Virus record (IMG/VR): IMGVR_UViG_3300032676_001454
Span: 1 to 29,688 of that record
Length of the DNA: 29,688 nucleotides
DNA from: a virus
Direction: 5' to 3' (one strand)
The stretch's first letter is position 1; each line of letters opens with the position of its first letter. Positions 7,788-28,901 of the stretch are shown piece after piece. The notes under the pieces are model-generated. The model was given only the letters and a program-made list of their open reading frames with translations. It was not told the DNA's origin and ran no database searches. A program made the translations under genes and the position numbers.

Positions 7788-8737
7788 CTGCCCAACGTCC
7801 TTTCTTCCCCATCGCCATCGACTCCACTTTCCTCGGAACCTTTCGTTCCTGTCCCCAAAAGGCCTTTCGTCAATATGTCCAACATTGGAAACCCGCTTCC
7901 GAATCCGTCCACCTCATTGCCGGCGGAGCCTTTGCTTCCGGAGTGGAAGCTGCTCGAAGAGCTTTTTACGAAGATGGACTGGCAACAGAAGAAGCCATTG
8001 GCCTCGGCCTGGCTGCGCTTATCAAGCACTATGGAGACTTCGAGTGCCCACCCGACTCCGCGAAGTCTCTGGAGCGCACTTGCGGCGCTCTCGAATTTTA
8101 CTTTGCTTCATACCCTCTCGGAGCAGACGGGGCTAAGCCGCTTATCTTCCCCAATGGAAAATCTGGCATTGAGTTCAGCTTCGCTCAGCCTCTCGGAATC
8201 AATCACCCGGTTACTGGCGACCCTCTACTCTACACAGGCCGATCAGATATGATCGCGGAAGCCTATGGCGGTGTTTATATCTACGACGAAAAGACGACGA
8301 CTTCCCTCGGGCAGTCCTGGGCCCGCCAGTGGGACATGCGAAGCCAGTTCACCGGCTACTGCTGGTCAGCCCGCGAACTCGGCTTCAAGCCCGCTGGCGT
8401 CTGCATCCGTGGCGTCTCAATCCTCAAGACCAAGTTCGACACCCAGCAAGTTCTCACCTATCGCTCTGATTACGAAATCGATCGCTGGCTCGAACAGACC
8501 CATCGCGACATCGAGCGGATGATTAAGTGCTGGCAGGAAGGCTATTGGGACTGGAACCTCGACCATTCCTGTGCCGACTATGGCGGTTGTGCGCTTCAAA
8601 CTGTCTGCAAGTCTCCGAACCCGGAAACCTGGCTCGAAGCCTATTTCATCAAAAGAGTTTGGGACCCGTTGGCCCGACAGGAAATCTCCGTCGAGCAGTA
8701 CGAAGCCAATATGGCTGAGTTCCTCCATCGTGGTTGA
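7784..8737 (+). CDS. PD-(D/E)XK exonuclease, RecB/Cas4-like, probable Fe-S
   Basis: The product is 317 residues. It reads as a RecB-family nuclease: GRSDMI (D155), YDEKTTT (E169, K170) and SQFTGY (Q188, Y192) give the D-ExK-QxxxY core, with a glutamate (E130) before it. One cysteine near the N-terminus (SCPQKAF, C23) and three near the C-terminus (C263, C269, C275) match the AddB/Cas4 plan in which four cysteines hold a 4Fe-4S cluster, though the spacing here is C-x5-C-x5-C. It would supply 3'-tailed DNA for the Sak4-like ATPase and SSB-like protein that follow. There are no CRISPR genes around, so this is not an adaptation Cas4. Confidence 0.88.
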   Translation: MTAQRPFFPIAIDSTFLGTFRSCPQKAFRQYVQHWKPASESVHLIAGGAFASGVEAARRAFYEDGLATEEAIGLGLAALIKHYGDFECPPDSAKSLERTCGALEFYFASYPLGADGAKPLIFPNGKSGIEFSFAQPLGINHPVTGDPLLYTGRSDMIAEAYGGVYIYDEKTTTSLGQSWARQWDMRSQFTGYCWSARELGFKPAGVCIRGVSILKTKFDTQQVLTYRSDYEIDRWLEQTHRDIERMIKCWQEGYWDWNLDHSCADYGGCALQTVCKSPNPETWLEAYFIKRVWDPLARQEISVEQYEANMAEFLHRG

Positions 8738-9086
8738 TCTCCAATGGCATATAAAGGAAGGATTCCGCCAGTATGACTTCACCAATCTTCCCGATTCTCG
8801 TTGGCTTGGCACTTCTCATTCATGGGTATGCACTGGCTGTGGATTGGTCTACTCACAAGCGAGGTGTTTCGTTGAAAGCCAGCTACGAATCTTCTCAATT
8901 CATGCGGGACTATGCCTTGATTGTGCTTCTCACGGTAATCGCTGGCATGTCCCTGGTTCGTTGGAATGTCTGCACTTAGTAGGTTGGCCTGTGCCAAAAG
9001 AAGTCCTCGAATACCAGCTGGAAATCGAGCTTGACTTCCTCTCCCATCCCAATCATCCATACAACAGTCAGGAAGATAACACATGA
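8730..9086 (+). CDS. Zinc-ribbon protein of unknown function
   Basis: The product is 118 residues from GTG 8730 (VVDLQWHIKEGFRQYDFTN...), overlapping the nuclease stop by 8 bases; the ribosome site is poor, so coupling is assumed and the start is uncertain. The sequence HSWVCTGCGLVYSQARC and, later, CLDCASHG form a likely zinc ribbon. The rest (WPVPKEVLEYQLEIELDF) is helical. The stop overlaps the next start (ATGA), which supports this frame as the main gene here. Confidence 0.65.
   Translation: MVDLQWHIKEGFRQYDFTNLPDSRWLGTSHSWVCTGCGLVYSQARCFVESQLRIFSIHAGLCLDCASHGNRWHVPGSLECLHLVGWPVPKEVLEYQLEIELDFLSHPNHPYNSQEDNT
8773..8979 (+). CDS. Possible embedded gene for a two-helix membrane protein
   Basis: This 68-residue ORF lies wholly inside 8730-9086 in another frame. 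It has its own ATG with AAGGAAGGA ten bases upstream. The product has two hydrophobic spans (FPILVGLALLIHGYALAV and YALIVLLTVIAGMSLV) joined by a polar loop (DWSTHKRGVSLKASYESSQFMRD), typical of a small inner-membrane phage protein. Codons look ordinary for this phage. It may be a real overprinted gene or chance; the surrounding frame explains more of the context. Confidence 0.4.
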   Translation: MTSPIFPILVGLALLIHGYALAVDWSTHKRGVSLKASYESSQFMRDYALIVLLTVIAGMSLVRWNVCT

Positions 9087-9256
9087 CATCTTTGCAAAGA
9101 AAGCTTCGTCGCTCACGTCTCGGGGCAAACAAACCCAAGGCACAAGAGCAGCCCTATCAGCTTATGCCCGACGGAAGCTTCCGCATCTATCACGCTACCA
9201 GGGGTTTCAAACGCATCTGCGCTGCCAGAATGCATCTTTACTTCGGAGGTAACTGA
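9083..9256 (+). CDS. 57-residue basic micro-protein
   Basis: This gene starts at ATG 9083 (ATGA overlap with the previous stop) and stops one base before the ATPase start. The product is Arg/Lys-rich at both ends (MTSLQRKLRRSRLGANKPKA..., RGFKRICAARMHLYFGGN), with a central LMPDGSFRIYHA strand. It may bind nucleic acid. It fills an otherwise gene-free gap with tight spacing, which supports it. Confidence 0.6.
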   Translation: MTSLQRKLRRSRLGANKPKAQEQPYQLMPDGSFRIYHATRGFKRICAARMHLYFGGN

Positions 9257-11070: not shown

Positions 11071-12399
11071 ATGGTACAGAAAATCCTCCGAGACTCTCTC
11101 ATTATCTCTGCTGATCGCCAGCGTCAAGACTTCGATCCGGAGGCTCTGACCGATCTCAGCAATTCAATCCTTATGCGGGGATTGTTGCACCCGATTGTAT
11201 GCCGGGAAACCCATCTAGGGTTCGCTCTCGTGGCCGGAGAGCGCCGATTGCGCGCCATGGCGGACCTATGGGCCATGGGGGAGAGTATCCGTTGCAATGG
11301 GGCTCTATTCGCGCCCTATGAGGTGCCAATCGTCACCCTTGGCGAACTCTCCGAACTCGAAGCCGAAGAAGCTGAACTCGATGAGAACTTCCGCCGGAAG
11401 GATCTGACTTGGCAGGAACAATCCGCAGCCATTGCTCGGTTGCATAAACTCCGACAGGCTCAGGCTGAAGCCTTCGGTAATCAGCACGAGAAACATGAAA
11501 CCGTCACTGAAGTCGTCTCTCTCGGCACTCTGACCAAAGATCGCACGACGGCCCACCAGTCTCTCGTCCTCGCTGATCACCTCTCTAACCCCCTGGTTGC
11601 TCGCGCTGCCACTGCCAAAGATGCTTTCAAAATTCTCAAGCGGGAGGAGGAAACCAAAAAGAATGCTGCTCTTGCCGAGCGCGTGGGCCGAACTTACAAC
11701 TCATCCTCCCACAAGCTTCTCCACGTTGATTGCATCGAATGGATGCAGGAATGCCCAGACAACACTTTCGATGTCATCCTGACCGACCCTCCCTACGGCA
11801 TGGGGGCGGACACCTTTGGTGATGGTGGCGGAAAGATGGTTAATTCCGAACACCACTACCAAGACAGCTATGCCAACTGGCAGCATTTGATGTTGGAATT
11901 CTGTCCTCTGGCTTTTCGCATCACAAAGCCCCAGGCCCACGCCTATATCTTCTGCGACTTTGACCGCTTCGCAGAACTCAAGCGCATGATGCTTGACGCT
12001 GGCTGGTACGTCTTCCGAACCCCTCTCGTCGTCTACAAAACTGATTCTGGTCGCGTACCCCTCCCTGAACATGGTCCTCGCCGGCAGTATGAACTCTGCC
12101 TCTATGCCATCAAGGGCAATAAGCCCGTCACAGGAATCTATTCCGATGTCTTACCCTGCCGTCTCGAAGAGAATATCGGCCATGGTGCTAACAAGCCCAT
12201 TGAACTCTTTGTTGATCTGCTCCGACGCAGCACACGTCCGGGTGACACAATCCTTGATGCGTTCGCGGGCACAGGTACTATCTTCCCTGCTGCCCATTCA
12301 CTCAAACTCTACGCAACAGGACTTGAACTGAATGCTGAATACTATGGCATTTGTGTTCAACGTCTGAACAAACTCGATGAGCAAGTGGAGTTGATCTGA
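11071..12399 (+). CDS. ParB-like domain fused to a DNA (N4/N6) methyltransferase
   Basis: The product is 442 residues. Residues 1-130 match ParB/sulfiredoxin-type domains: LTDLSNSILMRGLLHPIVCRE, then VAGERRLRAM (54-63) and a LDENFRRKDLTWQEQ helix. Residues 205-442 are an amino-methyltransferase of the beta order: catalytic DPPYG (239-243) comes before the AdoMet loop DAFAGTGT (397-403), as in N6_N4_Mtase enzymes. It would methylate adenine N6 or cytosine N4 on phage DNA to avoid host restriction; no partner endonuclease is nearby. The ribosome site is AAGGAGCATCTCCC. The stop overlaps the polymerase start (TGATG). Confidence 0.88.
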   Translation: MVQKILRDSLIISADRQRQDFDPEALTDLSNSILMRGLLHPIVCRETHLGFALVAGERRLRAMADLWAMGESIRCNGALFAPYEVPIVTLGELSELEAEEAELDENFRRKDLTWQEQSAAIARLHKLRQAQAEAFGNQHEKHETVTEVVSLGTLTKDRTTAHQSLVLADHLSNPLVARAATAKDAFKILKREEETKKNAALAERVGRTYNSSSHKLLHVDCIEWMQECPDNTFDVILTDPPYGMGADTFGDGGGKMVNSEHHYQDSYANWQHLMLEFCPLAFRITKPQAHAYIFCDFDRFAELKRMMLDAGWYVFRTPLVVYKTDSGRVPLPEHGPRRQYELCLYAIKGNKPVTGIYSDVLPCRLEENIGHGANKPIELFVDLLRRSTRPGDTILDAFAGTGTIFPAAHSLKLYATGLELNAEYYGICVQRLNKLDEQVELI

Positions 12400-14774
12400 T
12401 GCTCCGAGGTCGCGGGGACACCAACGCAGCTCTTATGATTGTCTCAGACTGCGTTACCCACAGAGACATCAACTCTAACTCCATTCTCTCAGACCGAGAG
12501 TTCTCCAATATGGCCCGCGAGGCAGGCATCGATCCCTATGCCTGCTTCATCACCTCACTGATCAAAGGAACCATCCATGCCCAAGACCCCGACCTCCTCA
12601 TTGCGCGAACCAAAGGCGAGATCACTCCGATCCATCGCCCTCTCTGGGACCGCTATGTCAAACCCGAATTTTTATTGGGCCTTGATACGCTCAACCGTGA
12701 AATCGATGCTGTCAGGCCCAAAGTCATACTCTGCTTCGGAAATGCGGTCCTCTTCGCCCTCACAGGGAAATTCGGAATAAAGTCCTGGCGATCCTCCATC
12801 CTTAAGTACACAACTCCTGCCGGTCATTCCTGCTATGTCATACCAACTTATACACCCGGATATATCTACGCCGTTTGGAAAGACCGTCAGGTCTGCGTAC
12901 ACGATTATCGTCGGGCAGCAAAGCTTGCATTTGATCCTTCACCAGTCAGCGAGCCTGACTATCAATTCGAAGTCGAACCGAGCTTTAGTATCGTCGCTAT
13001 GCGTTTACAGGCACTCCAATCCCGAGCAGAAAAAGCCCAACTCGACTTATCTGTTGATGTGGAAACACGGTCAGGACATCTGGCCTGTGTGGGAATAGCC
13101 TGGTCGGAAACCGAAGCCATCTGCATTCCTCTCATGCGAGCGAACTTCGACCCTTCCCGCGTGAATTATTGGCTTGAAGTCGAAGAAGCCTTCATAGCTT
13201 TCAAACTCTACAAGCTTCTCACTCACCCCAATGTCAGGGTTATTGGTCAGAATTTCATCTACGATGCGCAGTACTTCTACCGTTGGTTGCTTTTCATACC
13301 GAACTTCGCCCGTGATACCATGCTGGCTCAGCATTCCATCTTCTCCTCCATGCCAAAGGGTCTCGATTTCCTCTCTTCCATGTATGCTGCCTACCATGTC
13401 TACTGGAAGGATGAATCCAAAAACTGGGACCCGAAACTCGGTGAGCGCCAGCTCTGGATTTACAACTGCAAAGACTGCTGCATCACCTTTGAAATCGACA
13501 AGGTCGAACAGACCATGATCGATCAGTTCACTGCCTCTTCCTGGCCCGAACTCCGTTCAGTCTCCGACTTCCAGCAATCGATGTTCTGGCCTGTCCTTGA
13601 AACAATGAACCGGGGGATAAGAGTCAACAATGAGTCAAAGACCAGCCTTTCCCGAGATCTTGAAAGCGCGATCCTTGAGGCCAATGCCTGGATTAAAACT
13701 CTGCTTGGTTTCGAGCTTAATATCAAATCCCCAAAGCAGATGCAGGATTTATTCTACCGATTACTTGACCAACGGCCTGTTATTTCGCGCAAAACTGGCA
13801 ATCCCACCACCGATGATGCTGCTCTTGAAAAGCTCGGAGATAGAGAACCTCTGCTCAGGCCTCTTACCAACCGAATCCGCGAGCTGCGTAGTCTCAATGT
13901 ATTCCGGGCTACGTTTCTGGAAGCTCCCGTGGACACTGACGAACGGATGCGATGCAGCTTTAACATCGCCGGAACTGAAACATATCGATTTAGCAGTTCT
14001 GAAAACGCTTTCGGTTCGGGAATGAACCTTCAGAACATTCCTTCCGGCGATGAAGCCTCGGGTCTTCCGAATGTCAGGAAGCTTTTCATCACTGATCCTG
14101 GCATGGAGTTCTTCGACATCGACCTGGATTCTGCCGACCTTCGCATTGTCGTCTGGGAATCTGACTGCAAGGAAATGAAGGCCATGCTGGCCGAGGGCCT
14201 CAAGCCCTATGTCGAAGTCGCAAAGGAATACTACCATGACCCTTCCATCACCAAGCATCATCCCTCCTACAAGCTCTTCAAGGCCCTTTGCCACGGCACC
14301 AACTACCTTGGAACAGCTTCTGGCCTCTCCAGTCGAATTGGGCTTCTTACTCATGAAGTGGAACGCATTCAGCGATGGTATTATGGGAAGTTCCCTGAGA
14401 TCGAAAAGTGGCAAGAGCGTGTTAAGCATGAGGTCGCTTCTAGAAGATATGTCCAAAATATCTTCGGATACCGCTCCTACTTCTTCGATCGTATTGAAGG
14501 GACCATCTTTAAGCAAGCTGTGGCTTGGATTCCTCAATCTACCGTGGGATGCCTTATCAATCGAGGGTATCGAAATCTCTATGAGAAAGAACCTCAAATC
14601 CAAGTTCTCCTTCAAGTTCACGATTCTCTCGCAGGACAATACCCGGCACATCTTCGAGACGAAAGTATCCGAAAGATTATTCATCACTGCTCTGTGGAAC
14701 TTCCTTACCCGGAGCCGATGACTGTTCCTGTCGGTATCAAGACCTCACCGATCAGCTGGGGAGATTGCCAGTGA
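12399..14774 (+). CDS. Family A DNA polymerase with N-terminal uracil-glycosylase-like domain
   Basis: The product is 791 residues. Residues 1-175 resemble the UDG-like domain found at the N-terminus of SPO1-type polymerases (ALMIVSD, ITSLIKG, PKVILCFGNAV, CYVIPTYTPGYIY), but the expected catalytic motifs look degraded. Residues 210-370 are the 3'-5' exonuclease: DVET (D220, E222), NFIYD (N285, D289), YNCKD (Y355, D359). The polymerase has motif A DLDSADLR (D575), motif B around K628 (YKLFKALCHGTNYLG) and motif C VHDS (D742). It is the replicative enzyme of this phage. Oddities are Asp for the usual Glu in motif A, His at the fingers aromatic position and Ser for Glu after the motif C Asp. 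Confidence 0.93.
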   Translation: MLRGRGDTNAALMIVSDCVTHRDINSNSILSDREFSNMAREAGIDPYACFITSLIKGTIHAQDPDLLIARTKGEITPIHRPLWDRYVKPEFLLGLDTLNREIDAVRPKVILCFGNAVLFALTGKFGIKSWRSSILKYTTPAGHSCYVIPTYTPGYIYAVWKDRQVCVHDYRRAAKLAFDPSPVSEPDYQFEVEPSFSIVAMRLQALQSRAEKAQLDLSVDVETRSGHLACVGIAWSETEAICIPLMRANFDPSRVNYWLEVEEAFIAFKLYKLLTHPNVRVIGQNFIYDAQYFYRWLLFIPNFARDTMLAQHSIFSSMPKGLDFLSSMYAAYHVYWKDESKNWDPKLGERQLWIYNCKDCCITFEIDKVEQTMIDQFTASSWPELRSVSDFQQSMFWPVLETMNRGIRVNNESKTSLSRDLESAILEANAWIKTLLGFELNIKSPKQMQDLFYRLLDQRPVISRKTGNPTTDDAALEKLGDREPLLRPLTNRIRELRSLNVFRATFLEAPVDTDERMRCSFNIAGTETYRFSSSENAFGSGMNLQNIPSGDEASGLPNVRKLFITDPGMEFFDIDLDSADLRIVVWESDCKEMKAMLAEGLKPYVEVAKEYYHDPSITKHHPSYKLFKALCHGTNYLGTASGLSSRIGLLTHEVERIQRWYYGKFPEIEKWQERVKHEVASRRYVQNIFGYRSYFFDRIEGTIFKQAVAWIPQSTVGCLINRGYRNLYEKEPQIQVLLQVHDSLAGQYPAHLRDESIRKIIHHCSVELPYPEPMTVPVGIKTSPISWGDCQ

Positions 14775-15985
14775 AACGCCGATTAGGGAATTGGATTTCA
14801 GCTTACATGGAGTATTCGGCTTACTCCGAAGCGCCCAAACACATGCACTTCTGGGTTGCAGTCTCCACCATTGCTGGGGCGCTGCGCCGACAAGTCTGGT
14901 TAGACATGGGATACTTCCAATGGTATCCGAACTTCTACATCATTCTCGTCGCACCGCCTGGAATCGTCTCCAAATCAACCACTGCCGATATCGGCATGTC
15001 TCTGCTCAAAAAGGTGCCAGATGTCAAATTCGGACCAGACGTTGTTACGTGGCAGGCTCTTGTCGGGGCTTTTGCAGAATCCACACTGGCGTTTGAATAC
15101 AATTCTGAATATCATGCGATGTCAGCGCTTACTATCCTGTCCTCAGAATTTGGAAATCTTCTTGATCCGAGAGACACCGCAATGGTTGACCTTTTCGTTA
15201 CTCTCTGGGACGGACGCCAGGGTGCATTTGAAAAGAAGACCAAGGGATCTGGTAATGACACAGTGGAAAATCCCTGGATCAATCTCATTGCTTGCACTAC
15301 GCCGTCGTGGATAGCAGGGAATTTCCCAGAATACATGGTCGGAGGGGGCTTTACCTCTCGATGTATCTTCGTCTATGCTGAGAAGAAACAACGCCTTGTA
15401 GCCTACCCTCAGGAAATCATCCCTGAAGGCTGGAAGGAAAAAGCCCAGCACCTTCTCGACGACCTAACCCTGATCTCAATGATGAAGGGCAAGTTCACCA
15501 TGACCCCTGAGGCCCTCAAGTACGGTCATGCCTGGTATGAGGCCCACTACGCCTCCAAGCATCTCCACCTCGACGAGGATCGCTTCGGGGGTTACCTGGC
15601 CCGCAAGCAAACTCATATCCACAAACTTGCTATGGTTCTCTCAGCCGCTGAATCAGACTCCCTGATCATCACCGCTGAACACCTCGCTTTGGCCAACCAG
15701 ATGGTCACTGACCTCGAACCTGAAATGCAGTTCGTCTTCTCAAAGATTGGAAAATCTGAAGAAGCCCTTTTCGCTGAGCGTCTCATCTGGTACGTTGCCA
15801 AACGCGGAAAGGTCGAGTGGGCCGAAGCCTACCGCTACGTTCATGCCCACTTTCCAAAGATCCAGGACTTCGAATCCATCATCAACGGGGCCATCCGCTC
15901 TGGACAACTCCGGATGCAACAACAAGGCAATACACTCTATCTCTTTCCAGGGATCACTGTATCTGATGTAAACCCTGAAAACTGA
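14771..15985 (+). CDS. DUF3987-like replication protein with unusual P-loop
   Basis: The product is 404 residues from GTG 14771, overlapping the polymerase stop (GTGA). An open frame with TTG at 14765 adds two residues; the GTG fits coupling better. The text AYSEAPKHMHFWVAVSTIAGALRRQVW is typical of phage DUF3987/helicase-like proteins. The P-loop position reads APPGIVSKSTT, with Ser where Walker A has Gly before Lys. A possible Walker B is LTILSSEFGNLL. The C-terminal part (FAERLIWYVAKRGKVEWAEAYRYV) looks like a winged helix. It probably acts as primase-helicase or loader with the polymerase. It is the last gene of the rightward operon. Confidence 0.75.
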   Translation: MKRRLGNWISAYMEYSAYSEAPKHMHFWVAVSTIAGALRRQVWLDMGYFQWYPNFYIILVAPPGIVSKSTTADIGMSLLKKVPDVKFGPDVVTWQALVGAFAESTLAFEYNSEYHAMSALTILSSEFGNLLDPRDTAMVDLFVTLWDGRQGAFEKKTKGSGNDTVENPWINLIACTTPSWIAGNFPEYMVGGGFTSRCIFVYAEKKQRLVAYPQEIIPEGWKEKAQHLLDDLTLISMMKGKFTMTPEALKYGHAWYEAHYASKHLHLDEDRFGGYLARKQTHIHKLAMVLSAAESDSLIITAEHLALANQMVTDLEPEMQFVFSKIGKSEEALFAERLIWYVAKRGKVEWAEAYRYVHAHFPKIQDFESIINGAIRSGQLRMQQQGNTLYLFPGITVSDVNPEN

Positions 15986-15986
15986 A

Positions 15987-16026
15987 AAACCCCCGTTAGT
16001 TTGCCAATTCAAACTAACGGGGGTTT
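15987..16026. terminator. Two-way terminator between convergent operons
   Basis: A perfect 17-bp stem (15987-16003 with 16010-16026) closes a 6-base loop. On the minus strand it is followed by TTTTTCAG; on the plus strand by CATTTTG. It can stop both the replication operon and the late operon. The 89 bases from 16027 to the next gene hold nothing else I can call. Confidence 0.88.
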
Positions 16027-16115
16027 CATTTTGTCAAAATTTGAAGTTAAAACTTATTCTCAATGCCCCTCGTCAAACAGCCTGTCGATCGGCTCCCATG
16101 CAAGGACAAGTAGCA

Positions 16116-18371
16116 CTATTGCACCTCCAAAGTTTCAATCCGTGCCACCACGTCCCAGGCATCCGTATTGCTGGTCGGGGGCGTAAACGAAATGTTCAGG
16201 CACCCCAATGCTGTGTCCGCAGTTGCTGCAATTGTGGCCCCAGTCACGGTGCCGTTGGTCAACGGCGTCGGTGTGGCGTTCATCTGAATTGCAGTTGTGG
16301 CTGCACTGGCACCACGGACAAGCAAGCCATCCCACGTGCCCCAGCTCATGCTTTTTGAAGGCGTCGTGTGGTCGATGGCGGCGATCCGCATAGATAGCTG
16401 GTAAGCGGAGTTGTTGGGGATTACCCCGCACGTAAACGTGGTTGGCGATGCGGAGCCGTCTGCATCGACGCGAAACGCTGACGCAGTTGAGCCCGTGCCG
16501 TGCCAGACAAACAGTTCTGTCTGGGCATCGCCCTGCACGTTGAAAAGGCCGCCAGCGAACACCTGGGCAGCGTAGTGCTGCCGGTCAGTGCCCTGGTAGC
16601 CACCGCTCGCCGAACCATAAGCGCCTGCAATCGTATTGTTTTTGCCACCGCCAGTGAAGCCGTTGCTTGATGTGCTCAGGATGAAATTATTCGATCCGCC
16701 TGCCATAAACCCACGGACGCCTGCGTTGGTCCCGGTTTCTCCAAAATAAAAGCCGCCGAAGCCAATACACCCCGAGGTGGGGAGAGCCTGGCCCGACAAG
16801 GCATATGCTGACCAGCAGGAGGTACTATCCCCCGAAAACGCCAGTCCTTGCTGAAATCCGTAGGGCGCAGTGATGTGGCTGCCTGGCCCACCGAACGGAT
16901 CGGAAATGTTGTTCGATTTATCGACATGCAGGACTTTGTTATAAGTCGCTGGTGTGGGTACAGTCACCGTATACGTGTCGCCGGTAACCGCCGTTCCGGT
17001 GACGGGAATAATCATGTCTTTGAAGTTGATGGCTCCCCCAGAAACTGCAATGCCACTCTGTGAGTTGCCCCCGGCAGGAGCCGCAATGTTGAAGGTGGTG
17101 CTAGTAGCAGCCGTGATAGTGTAAACGCCAGGCGCAGCGGAAGGGTTAATGCCTATACCAAAGGTGCAGGTCTGCCCGCTTGCCACGCCGTTGATGCCGC
17201 CAGCATAGATTGGGTTCCGTGCGAGGCTCACTGTCGTAGCCGTCACCGCCGTCACATAAGTCTCGGGATAAATCCCCCCTGAGACACCACCGCAGGACAC
17301 AGTTTGGCCGATAGTAACGCCGGACACGCTTGCGAAGTTGAGGGCCGAAGTCGTGTAGTCAGATGCAGCGTTTGTCGCCAACGACACCGGATTATAGGCC
17401 AACGTGCCCGCGTTGCCTCCAGTCACCACAAAAGTCGCACCCTGCACAAAGCCCTGAGACCACACAGGCGCTCCGGTCAGGCCGATCAGGTTGTCATAGC
17501 AGTGGCCGTTCGTCGCCACGCCGGAGGGCGGGGTATATGCTGTATTGGCGCAGACGACCGGGCTTCCCGTTGTCGCAGTTCCATACTTGTAGGCATAAAT
17601 TTCATCGATCCGGTTGGTGTCATCGTTACCGAGCACCAGACCGTCGCCGGTACCATAAAAAACGCCAATATAATGAAATCGGTTATAGCTGGTATTCCAG
17701 GATGATCCCGATCCATTATCCAGGACAAGGCCGCTGGCCGCATAAGATGCATTGATATTTCGCGTGCCGATCCACGCATCATTCTGCTGGTTACCTGGCG
17801 CCGGTGTCGCCGTATCCCACAGCACACCCGTCTTGCGAGCTTCACCCTGCGTAAACGCCCATGTGCCATACGATACGGACTGGAGATGTACGCATGTATC
17901 CACGAGCGAACCACAGTCGATGCCGATACCAATCAATCCGTTTCCGTACAGGCCCTGCGCGCCCGTGGCCTTGAACTCGATAAACGGGCCGGCCTCGGCA
18001 GTCCCATTATACGTGATTTTCGTGACGGTCTGGATGGACGAACTAACCGCGTTGTCGCGGGGGAAGCCGTAGCCTGCACCTTGGATGACAACCCCGCTGG
18101 CATTGACTGACAGATTGGTCGCTGCATAATAGCTGCCCGCAGGAACAACCACCACCGCACCGGGGGTGATTGCCGCCTTGGTTGCTGCCGCGTTTATGCA
18201 AGGCATGACGTCGTGACTGGTAGAGCCGTCCCAGACACAGCCGTATGTGTTGGCATAGATCTGGATTGGATTCTTATTTGCCGCAGCCAGCCCTTCGGCA
18301 ATCGGATCCGTCGCTGCCAACGCAGGTGCAGCGAACAGTGCCAAGACTGCGAAAAGTGGTTTGTAAAGCAT
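16116..18371 (-). CDS. Pectate-lyase-like tail spike with N-terminal signal peptide
   Basis: The product is 751 residues from ATG 18371, with GGGGGAGG upstream. Residues 1-19 (MLYKPLFAVLALFAAPALA, then ATDP) are a classic Sec signal with AxA cleavage, very odd for a virion spike. Residues 35-110 show the start of a right-handed beta-helix (DVMPCINAAATKAA, VVVVPAGSYYA, VVIQGAGYG), as in Pectate_lyase_3 depolymerases. The middle is Thr/Val/Gly-rich. The last 190 residues (SASGG, RQHYAAQVFAGGLFNVQGDAQ) match a domain common at the C-terminus of phage fibres. Base composition is more GC-rich than the tail genes. The start overlaps the upstream stop. Confidence 0.85.
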   Translation of the reverse strand: MLYKPLFAVLALFAAPALAATDPIAEGLAAANKNPIQIYANTYGCVWDGSTSHDVMPCINAAATKAAITPGAVVVVPAGSYYAATNLSVNASGVVIQGAGYGFPRDNAVSSSIQTVTKITYNGTAEAGPFIEFKATGAQGLYGNGLIGIGIDCGSLVDTCVHLQSVSYGTWAFTQGEARKTGVLWDTATPAPGNQQNDAWIGTRNINASYAASGLVLDNGSGSSWNTSYNRFHYIGVFYGTGDGLVLGNDDTNRIDEIYAYKYGTATTGSPVVCANTAYTPPSGVATNGHCYDNLIGLTGAPVWSQGFVQGATFVVTGGNAGTLAYNPVSLATNAASDYTTSALNFASVSGVTIGQTVSCGGVSGGIYPETYVTAVTATTVSLARNPIYAGGINGVASGQTCTFGIGINPSAAPGVYTITAATSTTFNIAAPAGGNSQSGIAVSGGAINFKDMIIPVTGTAVTGDTYTVTVPTPATYNKVLHVDKSNNISDPFGGPGSHITAPYGFQQGLAFSGDSTSCWSAYALSGQALPTSGCIGFGGFYFGETGTNAGVRGFMAGGSNNFILSTSSNGFTGGGKNNTIAGAYGSASGGYQGTDRQHYAAQVFAGGLFNVQGDAQTELFVWHGTGSTASAFRVDADGSASPTTFTCGVIPNNSAYQLSMRIAAIDHTTPSKSMSWGTWDGLLVRGASAATTAIQMNATPTPLTNGTVTGATIAATADTALGCLNISFTPPTSNTDAWDVVARIETLEVQ

Positions 18372-18736
18372 CACTGGCCTCCCCCGATAAAGCAAGTCCC
18401 ACCCGTTAATGTAATTTGTACCCACCGATACCCAGGCATGGTGTATACACCAGCAGAACTGATAACTGAAGTCGTGCTGATACTTCCAGAATTGTTCAGA
18501 ATAAGTGTTTGCACGACGAAATCACTGGCATTATCTGGACTGGCTGCCAGACTACCAGCACTTGGAGCAGTCGTGCAGTTCAGCATTACTACTCCATAAT
18601 CTCTGAAGTCGATGATCTGCCCACTGACAACAGCCTGCGGATATCTGACTGGGTTATTTGGAAAAACAACTTGCTGAGCTTCCACTTGTATGGGCAGCGC
18701 TAGCAGTGACCAACCAAAAAGAATTTTTCTCAGCAT
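18371..18736 (-). CDS. Small exported beta-rich protein coupled to the spike
   Basis: The product is 121 residues from ATG 18736, with GTAGGAGC upstream. Residues 1-20 (MLRKILFGWSLLALPIQVEA, then QQVVF) form a signal peptide. The mature part is beta-rich with two cysteines (MLNCTTAP and GGTCFIGGG), which could pair in the periplasm, and a VYTMPGYRWVQITLTGG segment reminiscent of small phage fibre domains. The stop overlaps the spike start by one base (TGATG). It could be a partner or chaperone of the spike, or an outer-surface exclusion factor; these are guesses. Confidence 0.7.
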   Translation of the reverse strand: MLRKILFGWSLLALPIQVEAQQVVFPNNPVRYPQAVVSGQIIDFRDYGVVMLNCTTAPSAGSLAASPDNASDFVVQTLILNNSGSISTTSVISSAGVYTMPGYRWVQITLTGGTCFIGGGQ

Positions 18737-18747
18737 ATTATCTGCTC

Positions 18748-18984
18748 CTACTTCGAAGGTGCTTTCGGACAACGATCCTGACAGACACAGGCATATCTCT
18801 CGTCGAAGTCCAAAATTTCTTTCTGCGTCTCTTGCGTATCACCCTTCCCGCTAAAGGTCATCGGCTTCGCAATCTGACAAAAATCACTGACCGTTGGTAT
18901 CGCGGTCGTACTCACTGCGCAGTTGCTGATCAAGGGCAGGATCAGACCCAGGAACAATAGTCTCAGCTTTTTCAACCTCTGCAT
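18748..18984 (-). CDS. Outer-membrane spanin-like lipoprotein (Rz1-like)
   Basis: The product is 78 residues. MQRLKKLRLLFLGLILPLISNC gives a basic N-terminus, hydrophobic core and candidate lipobox cysteine C22, though Asn at -1 is not typical. After it come DFCQIAKPMTFSGKGDTQETQKEILDFDERYACVC, which resembles small Rz1-like proteins of proteobacterial phages. It overlaps the preceding gene by 101 bases in another frame, as Rz/Rz1 pairs do. Role: fuse inner and outer membranes at the end of lysis. The ribosome site is CAGGAGAAAGTC. Confidence 0.65.
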   Translation of the reverse strand: MQRLKKLRLLFLGLILPLISNCAVSTTAIPTVSDFCQIAKPMTFSGKGDTQETQKEILDFDERYACVCQDRCPKAPSK

Positions 18985-19105
18985 TGACTTTCTCCTGAAC
19001 TTTCACTTGTTGCGCGTCAGCTCCAGCTTGCTCCAATTGGCGGTTCTGAAGAAACCCCAGAACCGCCTTTAGAAGATCCAGAGCAGCTGTTAGCCACCCC
19101 GGCAC
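18884..19105 (-). CDS. Short inner-membrane spanin-like protein
   Basis: The product is 73 residues from GTG 19105 (VPGWLTAALDLLKAVLGFLQ...). It has a short N-terminal hydrophobic helix and a charged coiled-coil-like stretch (NRQLEQAGADAQQVKVQEKVNAEVEKAET). This is the plan of an inner-membrane spanin but shorter than most. It lies between holin and lipoprotein genes and overlaps the latter, which is the main support. It may instead be an unrelated small membrane protein. Confidence 0.55.
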   Translation of the reverse strand: MPGWLTAALDLLKAVLGFLQNRQLEQAGADAQQVKVQEKVNAEVEKAETIVPGSDPALDQQLRSEYDRDTNGQ

Positions 19106-19289: not shown

Positions 19290-19703
19290 TCAGAGTTTGC
19301 CACCGGCTTCGAAGTAACTCAGAGGATGCCCGCCGGTGAATTGGAAGTGAGGCATCTCTTTGAACCGAGGCCAATCAAAGCCCCATTCAAACCCTAGGGA
19401 CTTGAAGATCCCTGCAATAACATGCCACTCAGGACGAGTGCCAGTGAAATCAGGCTTACCACCAATGACAGGATAGATATCCAGAGCGCAACCGTATTGG
19501 TGCATTGATTGTCCTGCTCGGGCATTGGTTATAACCCTTCCTGGCTCTGTCCGACCCTGGGCAAAGAGTTGATTCTGCTCTTCCCCTGTCCGCAGGGTAC
19601 AAGTTACCAGAACATCAATCCCCTTGGCTTTGCACTCCGCCAGAGCCTGCTCCGCCTTGTCCCGAACTATCGGATGAAGATCGTTCAGATTTCGATCGGC
19701 CAT
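19290..19703 (-). CDS. M15-family peptidase endolysin
   Basis: The product is 137 residues from ATG 19703, with GGAAAGG upstream. The zinc-site motifs are SMHQYGCALDI (H68, D75) and EMPHFQF (E116, H119), as in phage L-alanyl-D-glutamate / VanY-like peptidases such as the T5 endolysin. It cuts the peptide cross-bridges of peptidoglycan. There is no signal peptide, so it needs a holin. It overlaps the holin gene by 89 bases. Confidence 0.88.
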   Translation of the reverse strand: MADRNLNDLHPIVRDKAEQALAECKAKGIDVLVTCTLRTGEEQNQLFAQGRTEPGRVITNARAGQSMHQYGCALDIYPVIGGKPDFTGTRPEWHVIAGIFKSLGFEWGFDWPRFKEMPHFQFTGGHPLSYFEAGGKL

Positions 19704-20016
19704 TGCTTTGGACCTTTCCAAATTTCATATCAGCCCATCGGCTGAAGATCGTATCAATCCCATACGGACCAAGATAACCCGTGATGATCGCGATAGAAAC
19801 TGTTGGATTCCAGCCTAAGTTCCACCAGTTACAAAGGCCAAGAGCAATCCAACCCGTTCCTAATGCGATGGGAATATCCCAGAACAGTGCCCATGACAAG
19901 GGCTTAACTTGGCCCGCTTGGGCGAGTTTCGCATGGAACATAAGTCGTCCTAACATACCAGCACAGCCTGTAAAGAACCAAGGTGCTACTTCGTCAATCA
20001 ACTCTTTTTGAGCCAT
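19615..20016 (-). CDS. LydA-type phage holin
   Basis: The product is 133 residues. MLGRLMFHAKLAQAGQVKPLSWALFWDIPIALGTGWIALG and NPTVSIAIITGYLGPYGIDTIF give a GRL signature and about three hydrophobic helices, as in the LydA/Phage_holin_3 families. The last 30 residues are Ser/Gly/Gln-rich (GRSKSERSSSDSSGQGG) and are encoded over the start of the endolysin gene, so the tail may simply be a by-product of the overlap. The ribosome site is AAGGTGCAAA. Confidence 0.75.
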   Translation of the reverse strand: MAQKELIDEVAPWFFTGCAGMLGRLMFHAKLAQAGQVKPLSWALFWDIPIALGTGWIALGLCNWWNLGWNPTVSIAIITGYLGPYGIDTIFSRWADMKFGKVQSNGRSKSERSSSDSSGQGGAGSGGVQSQGD

Positions 20017-20655: not shown

Positions 20656-22107
20656 TTAAGTCACCCCACTGCCAGCAATAACCCAAGTCGTAGCTGCCAC
20701 CTTTAATAGCGTGGCAAGCCCATAGCCAGCTAAAGTTCTTGTACCAGTATTTGAAGTTCCGGCTTGATAAAGAGTATCTGTCGTGATCGAGATCGACTGA
20801 TTTGAACTACTGTTATTAAAGATTGTAATCGCGGAGCCTATGGGAAAAGCTACTGAACTATTTGCAGGAATCGTCACACCACCAGTCGTGATACTGATAT
20901 GCTTGCCCATATCACTGAAAGCAAGCGTATAGCCAGAAGTTTGATAGTTCTGCGGAAGTCCTTTATACCCAAAGGTATCCACTACTGCTGGGATTGTGAT
21001 TGACCCTCCCGAAGTAATCACCAGCACATTTTGCGATGTCGCCTGATTGTATATGTAAAAAGTATCCGCACCTGCTGTTCCAGGATCCGTCCCGATTTCG
21101 AACTTCGTTGCCCCATTGGACTGAAAACGAACATTCGCCTTCCAGGAAGTTCCTGTGGTATTATTCAATAGCAGAGCCGGAATTTGCCCAGAAGCTGCTA
21201 CTGATCTGATCGTGCCATTAACGTCCAGAGGCACTACTGGAGCCGCTATGCCAATCCCAACATAACCTCCAATAGGCTGAAGACACAGATTATAGATCGT
21301 TGAAGATCCGCTGGTGGTGAAAGCCGATTGCAGCCATTGAGTATACAGTGAACCTACGTCGAACTGTCCAGAGAGGAGAAAGTTTCCCCCAGTTCCGCCG
21401 AGAAAAGCTGCAGAATAGGTTGAAAGATTAGCAGAAGTCAGACTTCCCGCAGCTACTTGCGAAACCCCATAACCGATATTTGATTGTCCAACTGCCTGAA
21501 AAGGCATAGTTGGCGAAGCTGTTCCCAATCCAAAGTAACCTGCAGAAGTCAGTACCATAGCACTATTCGTACTGTTAGCTACTGACCAATAATGGCCTGT
21601 CGAAGACACATGACGAAGTGCTTGCGCTCTGATATAAATTGAATCGTCCGGTGCCACACCAAAGGTCAGCATTCGAGAATCTGATGAGGTAAAGGTAAGC
21701 CCAGAAGTGGCTGTTCCTAGAAGACTAAAGCACTCTCCAGCATCATAACTTGCGGGGGAAGCCGAAACAGCACTGAAAAAAGAGGCTGACTTCTCACCTG
21801 AACTCACAACCTGCAAAGGAAGAGTTGGAGTTGTAATACCTACACCAAGATAGCCACTTACAGAGCCATTAGCAGCAATCGCCAGGCTCTGCGCACTCAA
21901 AGCATTGACTGCTGAAAGATTCTGGTTATTCCAACCAATTGGACCTGAAGGTTTTCCTTGCCCATCCCTGGTTAAGACCATACTCATCGCTGCAGCCAGA
22001 TCATTGATGACCTGATTGTAGTAAGAAGATGAAATGTTCGTGTTTGTGATCGCGGGAAACGCTGGGCTTACCGGGGGAGTATAATTCCCTGAACCATCAA
22101 AAGGCAT
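20656..22107 (-). CDS. Tail fibre protein
   Basis: The product is 483 residues. The N-terminus MPFDGSGNYTPPVSPAFPAI and the segment YYNQVINDLAAAMSMVLTRDGQG are typical of podovirus tail fibres that attach to the virion. The body carries three copies of a GIG-x3-P-x2-PLxV strand motif at about residues 87-100, 193-206 and 283-296, a repeat known from trimeric fibres. The C-terminus (KVAATTWVIAGSGVT) is a common fibre ending. Start and previous stop overlap (TAATG). It would connect the tail to the glycine-rich adhesin. Confidence 0.82.
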   Translation of the reverse strand: MPFDGSGNYTPPVSPAFPAITNTNISSSYYNQVINDLAAAMSMVLTRDGQGKPSGPIGWNNQNLSAVNALSAQSLAIAANGSVSGYLGVGITTPTLPLQVVSSGEKSASFFSAVSASPASYDAGECFSLLGTATSGLTFTSSDSRMLTFGVAPDDSIYIRAQALRHVSSTGHYWSVANSTNSAMVLTSAGYFGLGTASPTMPFQAVGQSNIGYGVSQVAAGSLTSANLSTYSAAFLGGTGGNFLLSGQFDVGSLYTQWLQSAFTTSGSSTIYNLCLQPIGGYVGIGIAAPVVPLDVNGTIRSVAASGQIPALLLNNTTGTSWKANVRFQSNGATKFEIGTDPGTAGADTFYIYNQATSQNVLVITSGGSITIPAVVDTFGYKGLPQNYQTSGYTLAFSDMGKHISITTGGVTIPANSSVAFPIGSAITIFNNSSSNQSISITTDTLYQAGTSNTGTRTLAGYGLATLLKVAATTWVIAGSGVT

Positions 22108-26879: not shown

Positions 26880-27306
26880 GATATTTTTCCCTTAAGGATA
26901 GCCATTTGCACTGATCTTTTCCCAGAGTATAGATCAGTAAATCCCCTTTCGGGCTGGCATCCTTGAGGGTAGCCTCAAGCGAGAAACCGATGTTCTCAAT
27001 AAAATTCCTGGAATCGAAATTCTCTGACTCAACAGGAGAGATTATCTTATTAACTTTCAACTGCTCGAAAGGATAGTAAAAGCAAAACCAGAGAAATTCT
27101 CTATTCAGCCAAATTCTACCCTCTCCGACACAATGAAGCATGACACTCGCCCCATTGCAACCTTCAAATAAACAAGCTGCAATAGGCCCGACGCCATCTT
27201 GCCAGAGGCCAATAATAGATCCTCTACCAGGATGCCATTCCATATGAAGTCTCTGGGCAATCCAAGGACCATAAAGATCCTCTTGTCCTATGAGAATCCG
27301 CTTCAC
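26848..27306 (-). CDS. GNAT-like acetyltransferase-fold protein (gp13-like position)
   Basis: The product is 152 residues from GTG 27306, overlapping the previous stop (GTGA). The sequence ASVMLHCVGEGRIWLNREFLWFCFYYPFEQLKVNKIISPVES, then IENIGFSLEATLKDASPKGDLLIYTLGK fits the end of a GNAT fold (late strand, N..F..N.GF, substrate lid). The acetyl-CoA loop is not obvious, so catalysis is uncertain. In T7-like genomes gene 13 lies between tail tube and gene 14 and has a GNAT-like fold with an assembly role; the position here is the same. Confidence 0.72.
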   Translation of the reverse strand: MKRILIGQEDLYGPWIAQRLHMEWHPGRGSIIGLWQDGVGPIAACLFEGCNGASVMLHCVGEGRIWLNREFLWFCFYYPFEQLKVNKIISPVESENFDSRNFIENIGFSLEATLKDASPKGDLLIYTLGKDQCKWLSLREKYRGQTKRSSST

Positions 27307-28901
27307 AGAAAGCCAGCTGGTTTAACAAGTAACTGTGTTGCTGTCCAAGCAATATTACCGGTCGAGGAAGTTATCTGCATTCTCAAAGAGTGCATAAATC
27401 CAGGTTTGGAGGGAACTGTCATCCACTGAGGGACTACAAAATCCGTGGAGTTAATATCCCCAGTGCTGGACCATTCTGCTTGATCCCAGAGAGATATGTC
27501 CCAAGCAGCTGATTGAATTTGATAAGTTTGAAGATTATTAGCCGCAGAAGTTACGAAGTCTGTATCTACCGCATAGCTGATAGCCAGTTGTCCACTGGCC
27601 TGAATATAAGGCATTATTGAAGTTATCTGAAGACCAGAATTCGAACCGAAGTTATTATAAGCTTGCGCAATAGTCCCTTGAATTGCAGAACCCGAATCAC
27701 TAACTCCAGACCAACCTTGGTAAACCACATGCCCAGATGCGAAGAAGAAGTTCCCTTGATATTCTGCCAGACAACTAGCATTCCAACCAGTAAACCTACA
27801 CCAAGCTTTTGTAATCGTATTCATTACGAACTGATAGCTAACACTATCCGTCGCAACAGGTATATTTACAATCAGAGCACTGGCTGACTTATGCACAACC
27901 ATATCCCAATCAGGGTTGCTTCCATAAGTCTGGGCTGCGGCTAGAAAAGCCCCATCGATCTGAAAGCTTACATTCAGCGAGTGATCAATCACAACAGATT
28001 GCATCAACTTACTAAGAGGAAGAATCCCATTCTGACTAAGATATAAAAGATCACCACCATAATCGCAAAAACACTTATTACCAAGAGGCGGAGGGCAATC
28101 AAAAACACCCACCAGAGCCCAAGTCGAACTCGAACTCGGGTCAGTCCCTTGGTAGACAGCAAGCTCTCCCATAGTCGTAACAATGATGAAGAAGTCATCT
28201 GGACCAGCTCCTGAATCTAGTGACCAAGTTCCCATAGCGACGAGGGAACCACCCTTCTTGAATAGATGGCCTACGGGAAAGACTGAAGCAGCCCCAGCAA
28301 TACTCTCTACAGGAAGATACCAAAGATTCATGGTTCCTTCCTGGATCATCCAGAGGCGAACTTTATGAGAGAGAAGCTGCGAGATGTTGGAAGTGTTTAC
28401 ACCTGTAATAGCATAAGGAGTACTTACCCCGGTAACGCTGTAAAATGAAGTTCCATCGTAAATGAACATCGGATCAGTGCCATTGGCTCCAATCAGAAAC
28501 TGCCCCCCAGGGGTTGCGAAGTTCTGGGCCCGCCATCTCCCATTGGAACAGCTCAGCAGAGAACTACCAAAAGCCCCTGCGTTCGTTGCATCATAAATTC
28601 CTGTATTAGTCGCCGCAAAGAGTTTCCCACCAAACTGAGCTTGATAACTCAGCAAACTTCGAATATTCCCTGGTGCACCAGTCCTCCAGGAAGTTGATCC
28701 TGGTCGCAGTGTCAATGACTGTACCCCAGGAAAACAATTATCCAGCACATAGGCGTCAAGAGGCTTCATATCTGCTGGATTACCAACAGCATTCCAGCCA
28801 TTATAAGGACAGGGAAGAGCAATCTTCTGTGCATCGACCTCAGGTTGTACCTGAATCGGTCGAGTACCACCTCGGTTGCCTGTGCGGTTCCGGCCTCTCA
28901 C
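27303..28901 (-). CDS. Tail tubular protein B-like / tail nozzle
   Basis: The product is 532 residues from GTG 28901 (VRGRNRTGNRGGTRPIQVQP...), overlapping the stop of the upstream gene (GTGA). The segment NGWNAVGNPADMKPLDAYVLDNCFPGVQSLTLRPGS is a hallmark of podovirus tail nozzle/stabilisation proteins, and the many YDGTSF / LSYQAQFGGKLFAATNTGIYD strands fit a beta-propeller. It would form the tail tip below the adaptor ring. The order adaptor then nozzle matches T7 genes 11 and 12. Confidence 0.82.
   Translation of the reverse strand: MRGRNRTGNRGGTRPIQVQPEVDAQKIALPCPYNGWNAVGNPADMKPLDAYVLDNCFPGVQSLTLRPGSTSWRTGAPGNIRSLLSYQAQFGGKLFAATNTGIYDATNAGAFGSSLLSCSNGRWRAQNFATPGGQFLIGANGTDPMFIYDGTSFYSVTGVSTPYAITGVNTSNISQLLSHKVRLWMIQEGTMNLWYLPVESIAGAASVFPVGHLFKKGGSLVAMGTWSLDSGAGPDDFFIIVTTMGELAVYQGTDPSSSSTWALVGVFDCPPPLGNKCFCDYGGDLLYLSQNGILPLSKLMQSVVIDHSLNVSFQIDGAFLAAAQTYGSNPDWDMVVHKSASALIVNIPVATDSVSYQFVMNTITKAWCRFTGWNASCLAEYQGNFFFASGHVVYQGWSGVSDSGSAIQGTIAQAYNNFGSNSGLQITSIMPYIQASGQLAISYAVDTDFVTSAANNLQTYQIQSAAWDISLWDQAEWSSTGDINSTDFVVPQWMTVPSKPGFMHSLRMQITSSTGNIAWTATQLLVKPAGFL

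Follow-up and report, generated by a model that had tools for sequence, protein, structure and literature searches.

A short-tailed phage (podovirus), known only from metagenomes, ends its late operon with a gene for a spike-like protein that begins with a predicted Sec signal peptide and has no recognisable virion anchor. Export of this protein from the cytoplasm is well supported, because the start and the signal are sound, no anchor can be recognised, the phage has a separate fibre, and a fibre-like protein of a related phage also bears a signal. Export in place of cytoplasmic virion assembly had been proposed in a preliminary description of this DNA, and the same lines of evidence now support that prediction well. 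Our current working hypothesis, which on balance we favour, is that the product is a non-virion spike that is exported by Sec, folds in the periplasm, is freed at lysis and acts on host glycans. The features that bear on it are listed in Table 1; the window is the whole stretch analysed, a 29.7-kb IMG/VR virus record.

Table 1. Features of the spike gene and its surroundings, with positions in the 29.7-kb window
Feature	Position	Strand	Evidence or remark
DNA primase, convergent, border of the accessory slot	14765..15985	plus	phrog_14296, E=3e-84; 71-73% identical in relatives
Bidirectional terminator, late operon/primase gene	15986..16027	.	strong
Spike-like protein CDS, 751 aa, 12 Cys	16116..18371	minus	open frame, supported start
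Segment with weak right-handed beta-helix similarity, residues 49-112	18036..18227	minus	phmmer, PHROG
Predicted Sec signal peptide, 19 codons, MLYKPLFAVLALFAAPALA	18315..18371	minus	sequence, rule-based score, shuffles; predicted signal peptidase I cleavage before ATD
TGATG overlap of the upstream stop with the spike start (translational coupling)	18369..18373	minus	
Small partner gene, 121 aa, 2 Cys	18371..18736	minus	predicted signal MLRKILFGWSLLALPIQVEA before QQV, weaker
Shine-Dalgarno sequence GGGGGAGG	18378..18385	minus	6 nt before ATG 18371
Rz1-like lipoprotein spanin	18748..18984	minus	phrog_1275 Rz-like spanin, E=3.5e-8; homologues in relatives
Probable inner-membrane spanin (Rz), overlapping Rz1	18884..19105	minus	position; homologues in loci L026 and L028
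M15 peptidase endolysin	19290..19721	minus	PF13539, E=9e-14; phrog_2649 endolysin, E=4e-32
Probable ordinary anchored fibre, beginning MPFDGSGNYTPP	20656..22107	minus	conserved N-terminal domain, as in many related phages

The frame is open without interruption from 18371 to 16116 on the minus strand and the plus frame is interrupted by many stops; together with the GGAGG ribosome site that precedes the ATG, this establishes the 751-residue reading frame proposed earlier as a real gene of the minus strand. The in-frame starts at 18344, 18338, 18320 and 18206 have no Shine-Dalgarno sequence, that at 18290 has no well-placed one, and that at 18152 has a weak 4-base match but lies inside the beta-helix-like region. 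A downstream start that would drop the signal, as raised in the preliminary description, can be ruled out, since the near candidates have no usable ribosome site; 18371 is the best-supported start and the signal stays within the reading frame.

In the N-terminus lie a single Lys, a hydrophobic stretch and the cleavage site A-L-A, so that a positive n-region, a hydrophobic core and small residues at -3 and -1, the full set expected of a Sec/signal peptidase I substrate, are present at the true start. A twin Arg and a lipobox were looked for in the spike N-terminus and neither is present, which rules out a Tat or a lipoprotein signal. Scored from 18371 with our own rule set, the signal reaches 4.7, a value that 0.2% of sequences attain when the N-terminus is shuffled and 0.02% when the whole protein is. 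When the same rule-based score was computed for the non-redundant ORFs of 250 aa or more in the loci of related phages (659 ORFs), it exceeded 3.5 in only two, the spike and the fibre-like protein discussed below. Motif, start, score and shuffles thus agree on the N-terminal cleavable signal that had been suggested, with cleavage as a prediction from the sequence. Apart from identical copies, no homologue of the spike was found in phages, plasmids, bacterial genomes or IMG/VR, and conservation of the signal in divergent copies therefore cannot be shown.

In its size, and in a beta-helix start that is weakly supported here, the spike resembles the beta-helix tailspikes of podophages (P22 and LKA1 type); those, however, carry an N-terminal virion anchor, are folded in the cytoplasm and form part of the virion, whereas the spike starts with a Sec signal. 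Residues 49-112 gave a weak phmmer match to inulin fructotransferase 9j4i of the PDB (E=0.008), and roughly the same segment matched a PHROG tail-protein family weakly (E=0.0094). Such matches are in keeping with how a right-handed beta-helix usually begins, but do not prove that one is present. Of the beta-helix lyase-like region described previously, the beta-helix thus retains weak matches in one segment (E about 0.01), and catalytic activity cannot be inferred. Otherwise Pfam, NCBIfam and PHROGs gave no match or weak matches only, and a single-sequence AlphaFold model (pLDDT 32) was useless as a fold. The phage-fibre C-terminal domain of the preliminary description was confirmed by none of the tools, with no credible match in any search; a C-terminal fibre repeat and cap are a resemblance by eye, unsupported by tools, and are not claimed here.

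No virion or head-binding anchor domain is recognisable at the spike N-terminus, where Pfam and PHROG families gave no match, and the stretch of about 25 residues between the predicted cleavage site and the beta-helix-like start would be too short for the usual anchor domain. Nor does the N-terminus match the N-terminal domain of the phage's own fibre (MPFDGSGNY...), a domain common to many related phages, which makes that protein the probable ordinary anchored fibre of this phage. We consider it improbable that the protein is a virion spike after all, whether because its hydrophobic segment stays uncleaved or because exported, mature protein joins virions after lysis. Its spike-like architecture and the orientation that its gene shares with the virion genes would suit that role, and late attachment has a precedent in P22, whose free tailspikes can join heads in vitro; but the protein has a complete signal peptidase I signal with A-L-A and no anchor-like N-terminal domain, the conserved N-terminal domain sits on the separate fibre, and the gene is absent from relatives with the same tail genes.

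The late operon runs from the tail genes through the injection protein, the fibre, a Gly-rich protein, a holin-like gene, the M15 endolysin and the spanins to the gene at 18371-18736 and the spike gene, which therefore lies co-directionally behind the spanins and, as had been noted, is the last gene before a strong bidirectional terminator. The spike gene and the gene just upstream of it together fill the slot bounded by Rz1 and the primase gene. The 121-aa partner is probably also exported, its predicted signal having been found by a looser rule and missed by a stricter one; no database relative of it was found, and its single-sequence AlphaFold model has a pLDDT of 38.

According to the hypothesis that we favour, the spike would be made late, from the last gene at the lysis end of the late operon, alongside its small, translationally coupled and probably exported partner. 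Sec would move it to the periplasm, signal peptidase I would remove the signal, and the protein would fold there, presumably as a trimeric beta-helix and possibly with disulfides between some of its 12 Cys. The Rz1-like spanins point to a diderm host, the outer membrane of which would retain the spike until the spanins disrupt that membrane; the freed spike would then bind or cut host surface polysaccharide, its presumed glycan target, probably to the benefit of the phage. A further activity of the spike, before lysis, may be the trimming of polysaccharide in transit through the periplasm. The Cys residues of the spike (12) and its partner (2) are closely paired (P=0.04, in a spacing test made post hoc), which gives a hint of disulfides in the spike. 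Some fibres without a signal reach the same Cys richness (1.8-2.8%), and given this and the post hoc nature of the spacing test, Cys content was discarded as proof of export.

A free spike in the cytoplasm would also be released at lysis, so that what is gained by export is hard to see, unless folding or the periplasm matters. A free depolymerase, a receptor blocker and surface display, all put forward in the preliminary description, are not separable by sequence, and surface display is the least likely of them, since no autotransporter barrel, lipobox, membrane anchor or other outer-membrane feature was seen in the spike. It is also possible, if unlikely, that the exported protein acts on the envelope before lysis as a receptor blocker or in superinfection exclusion, masking or trimming receptor polysaccharide in the periplasm or outer membrane, so that progeny are spared readsorption to the producing cell or its debris. 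Exported phage proteins that reside at the cell surface are known, namely lambda Lom and T5 Llp. Like the spike, lambda Lom and Bor and T5 Llp are products of exported accessory genes in phage genomes; they are outer-membrane proteins or lipoproteins, however, whereas the spike has a soluble, cleavable-signal architecture with no lipobox, membrane anchor or outer-membrane barrel, and Llp is expressed early, whereas the spike gene stands at the end of the late operon. An exported spike could act on polymers crossing the periplasm, as has been proposed for the bacterial protein WceF (PMC7949094).

Judged from sequence, the spike is an accessory addition to the phage, since relatives have no counterpart in the slot and its GC3 is set apart from that of the large late genes. 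The loci of relatives were taken from IMG/VR with the primase gene as anchor (67 loci); among those that have the fibre and lysis genes in common with this phage, no counterpart of the spike was found by position or sequence search between the lysis genes and the primase gene, the slot being either empty or occupied by short or unrelated genes. The different base composition claimed previously is borne out, the spike gene (GC 0.572) having a GC3 of 0.627, compared with 0.377 for the fibre gene and with 0.427 and 0.387 for the genes of the injection and tail-stabilisation proteins, respectively; the partner gene, at 0.413, has late-gene composition. Composition and the lack of a phage homologue would be expected of a recently captured bacterial gene that encodes an exported beta-helix protein and has no established function in the phage, yet we give this explanation little credence: homologues are equally absent from bacteria and plasmids, early genes of the same phage have a similar GC3 (0.55-0.66), the gene has a good Shine-Dalgarno sequence and is translationally coupled, and an unrelated second case exists. 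It also recurs in two further IMG/VR contigs, 3300032117_000067, with an identical copy of the protein, and 3300032605_000286, in which residues 1-582 are identical.

The nearest working parallel to the spike appears to be WceF of Pantoea stewartii (PDB 6TGF), a native trimer of tailspike fold with a Tat signal and no head-binding domain, which is a glycosidase active on stewartan and may act during periplasmic transfer of the polysaccharide (PMC7949094). Both proteins combine an export signal with a tailspike-like protein of roughly 700 aa that has no head-binding domain, and the working model of WceF, in which polysaccharide is trimmed in the periplasm or outside, is shared with our proposal. 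In contrast to the spike, WceF is encoded by a bacterial gene in an exopolysaccharide cluster, uses Tat rather than Sec, and has a solved trimer and a measured activity; 6TGF was absent among the phmmer matches of the spike up to E=10. Proteins of the lysis region that use host Sec before lysis are represented by the Sec-exported Lys44 of fOg44 and by SAR endolysins (PMC6116005), but these are peptidoglycan hydrolases, whereas no lysis domain was detected in the spike-like protein. EBPR podovirus 2 likewise has a large protein, the hypothetical 702-aa gp38 (JF412295; 24504-26612 in locus L009), whose gene follows immediately on small overlapping genes at the spanin position, so that another large protein takes up the same slot there; unlike the spike, gp38 has no signal peptide, and it shows no detected sequence similarity to the spike. 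The parts are therefore known, in the form of Sec signals on phage endolysins, free depolymerases and exported accessory proteins, but their combination has no description in the open-access literature searched, where no phage spike with a signal peptide was found, although this is not proof of absence.

The second case comes from a related phage, at 11928-12962 (minus strand) of 3300037258_000827 (locus L084), where a 344-aa protein in the lysis region starts with MKKLISILLLFALVGTAQA, followed by QRYPYF. It has the highest signal score of the survey and 8 Cys, is fibre-like in that repeats are seen by eye, and is unrelated to the spike; no sequence relatives of it were found. The ATG of its gene falls at the end of the preceding gene. 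A fibre-like protein with a predicted signal as strong as that of the spike is new here. Four small proteins with predicted Sec signals and 2 Cys each were also detected, at L069 7310-7753 (minus), L076 1268-1630 (plus), L084 10613-11017 (minus) and L089 4551-4997 (minus), one of which gave a weak fibronectin type III match (E=0.001, below the Pfam cut-off). Signal-bearing fibre-like or beta-sandwich-like proteins thus appear to recur in this phage group, and several of them adjoin lysis genes. We suggest tentatively, as a possibility somewhat short of probable, that this podovirus group has on more than one occasion swapped the virion anchor of spike- or fibre-like proteins for a Sec signal, giving a class of exported, non-virion spikes whose genes adjoin the lysis genes, and that the small fibronectin type III-like exported proteins may share the strategy. 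If our hypothesis is correct, there are phages that spend resources on a spike which stays out of the virion and is exported before lysis; this would suggest a role for spikes as free agents directed against host polysaccharide or debris, and would provide a source of naturally exported depolymerase candidates. Screening fibre and spike genes for an export signal at their true start is a simple sequence test that could be applied to all phage genomes.

The window overlaps 3300032117_000067 and 3300032605_000286 at 99.99-100% identity. The former contig (39,386 b) has ends that overlap by 208 b at 99.5% and therefore probably represents a complete genome, read circularly, of about 39.2 kb. Ten early-side ORFs, among them a DNA polymerase, the primase and a Dda-like helicase, were compared with PHROGs, and no integrase was found. 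The tail protein at 27303-28901 (minus strand) relates the phage to podoviruses including Sulfitobacter phages pCB2047-A/C and phiGT1 and EBPR podovirus 2; phrog_5107 and several records call members of its family 'amidase', others tail tubular or phage stabilisation protein, and the lysis label looks wrong. On the plus strand, the ORF at 11071-12399 matches both ParB-like and DNA methyltransferase families and is apparently a fusion. Contig VRUF01000001.1 (locus L041), which has been assigned to a Planctomycetota MAG, encodes the phage primase, with 52% identity, at 8001-9173 and may be a mis-binned phage contig.
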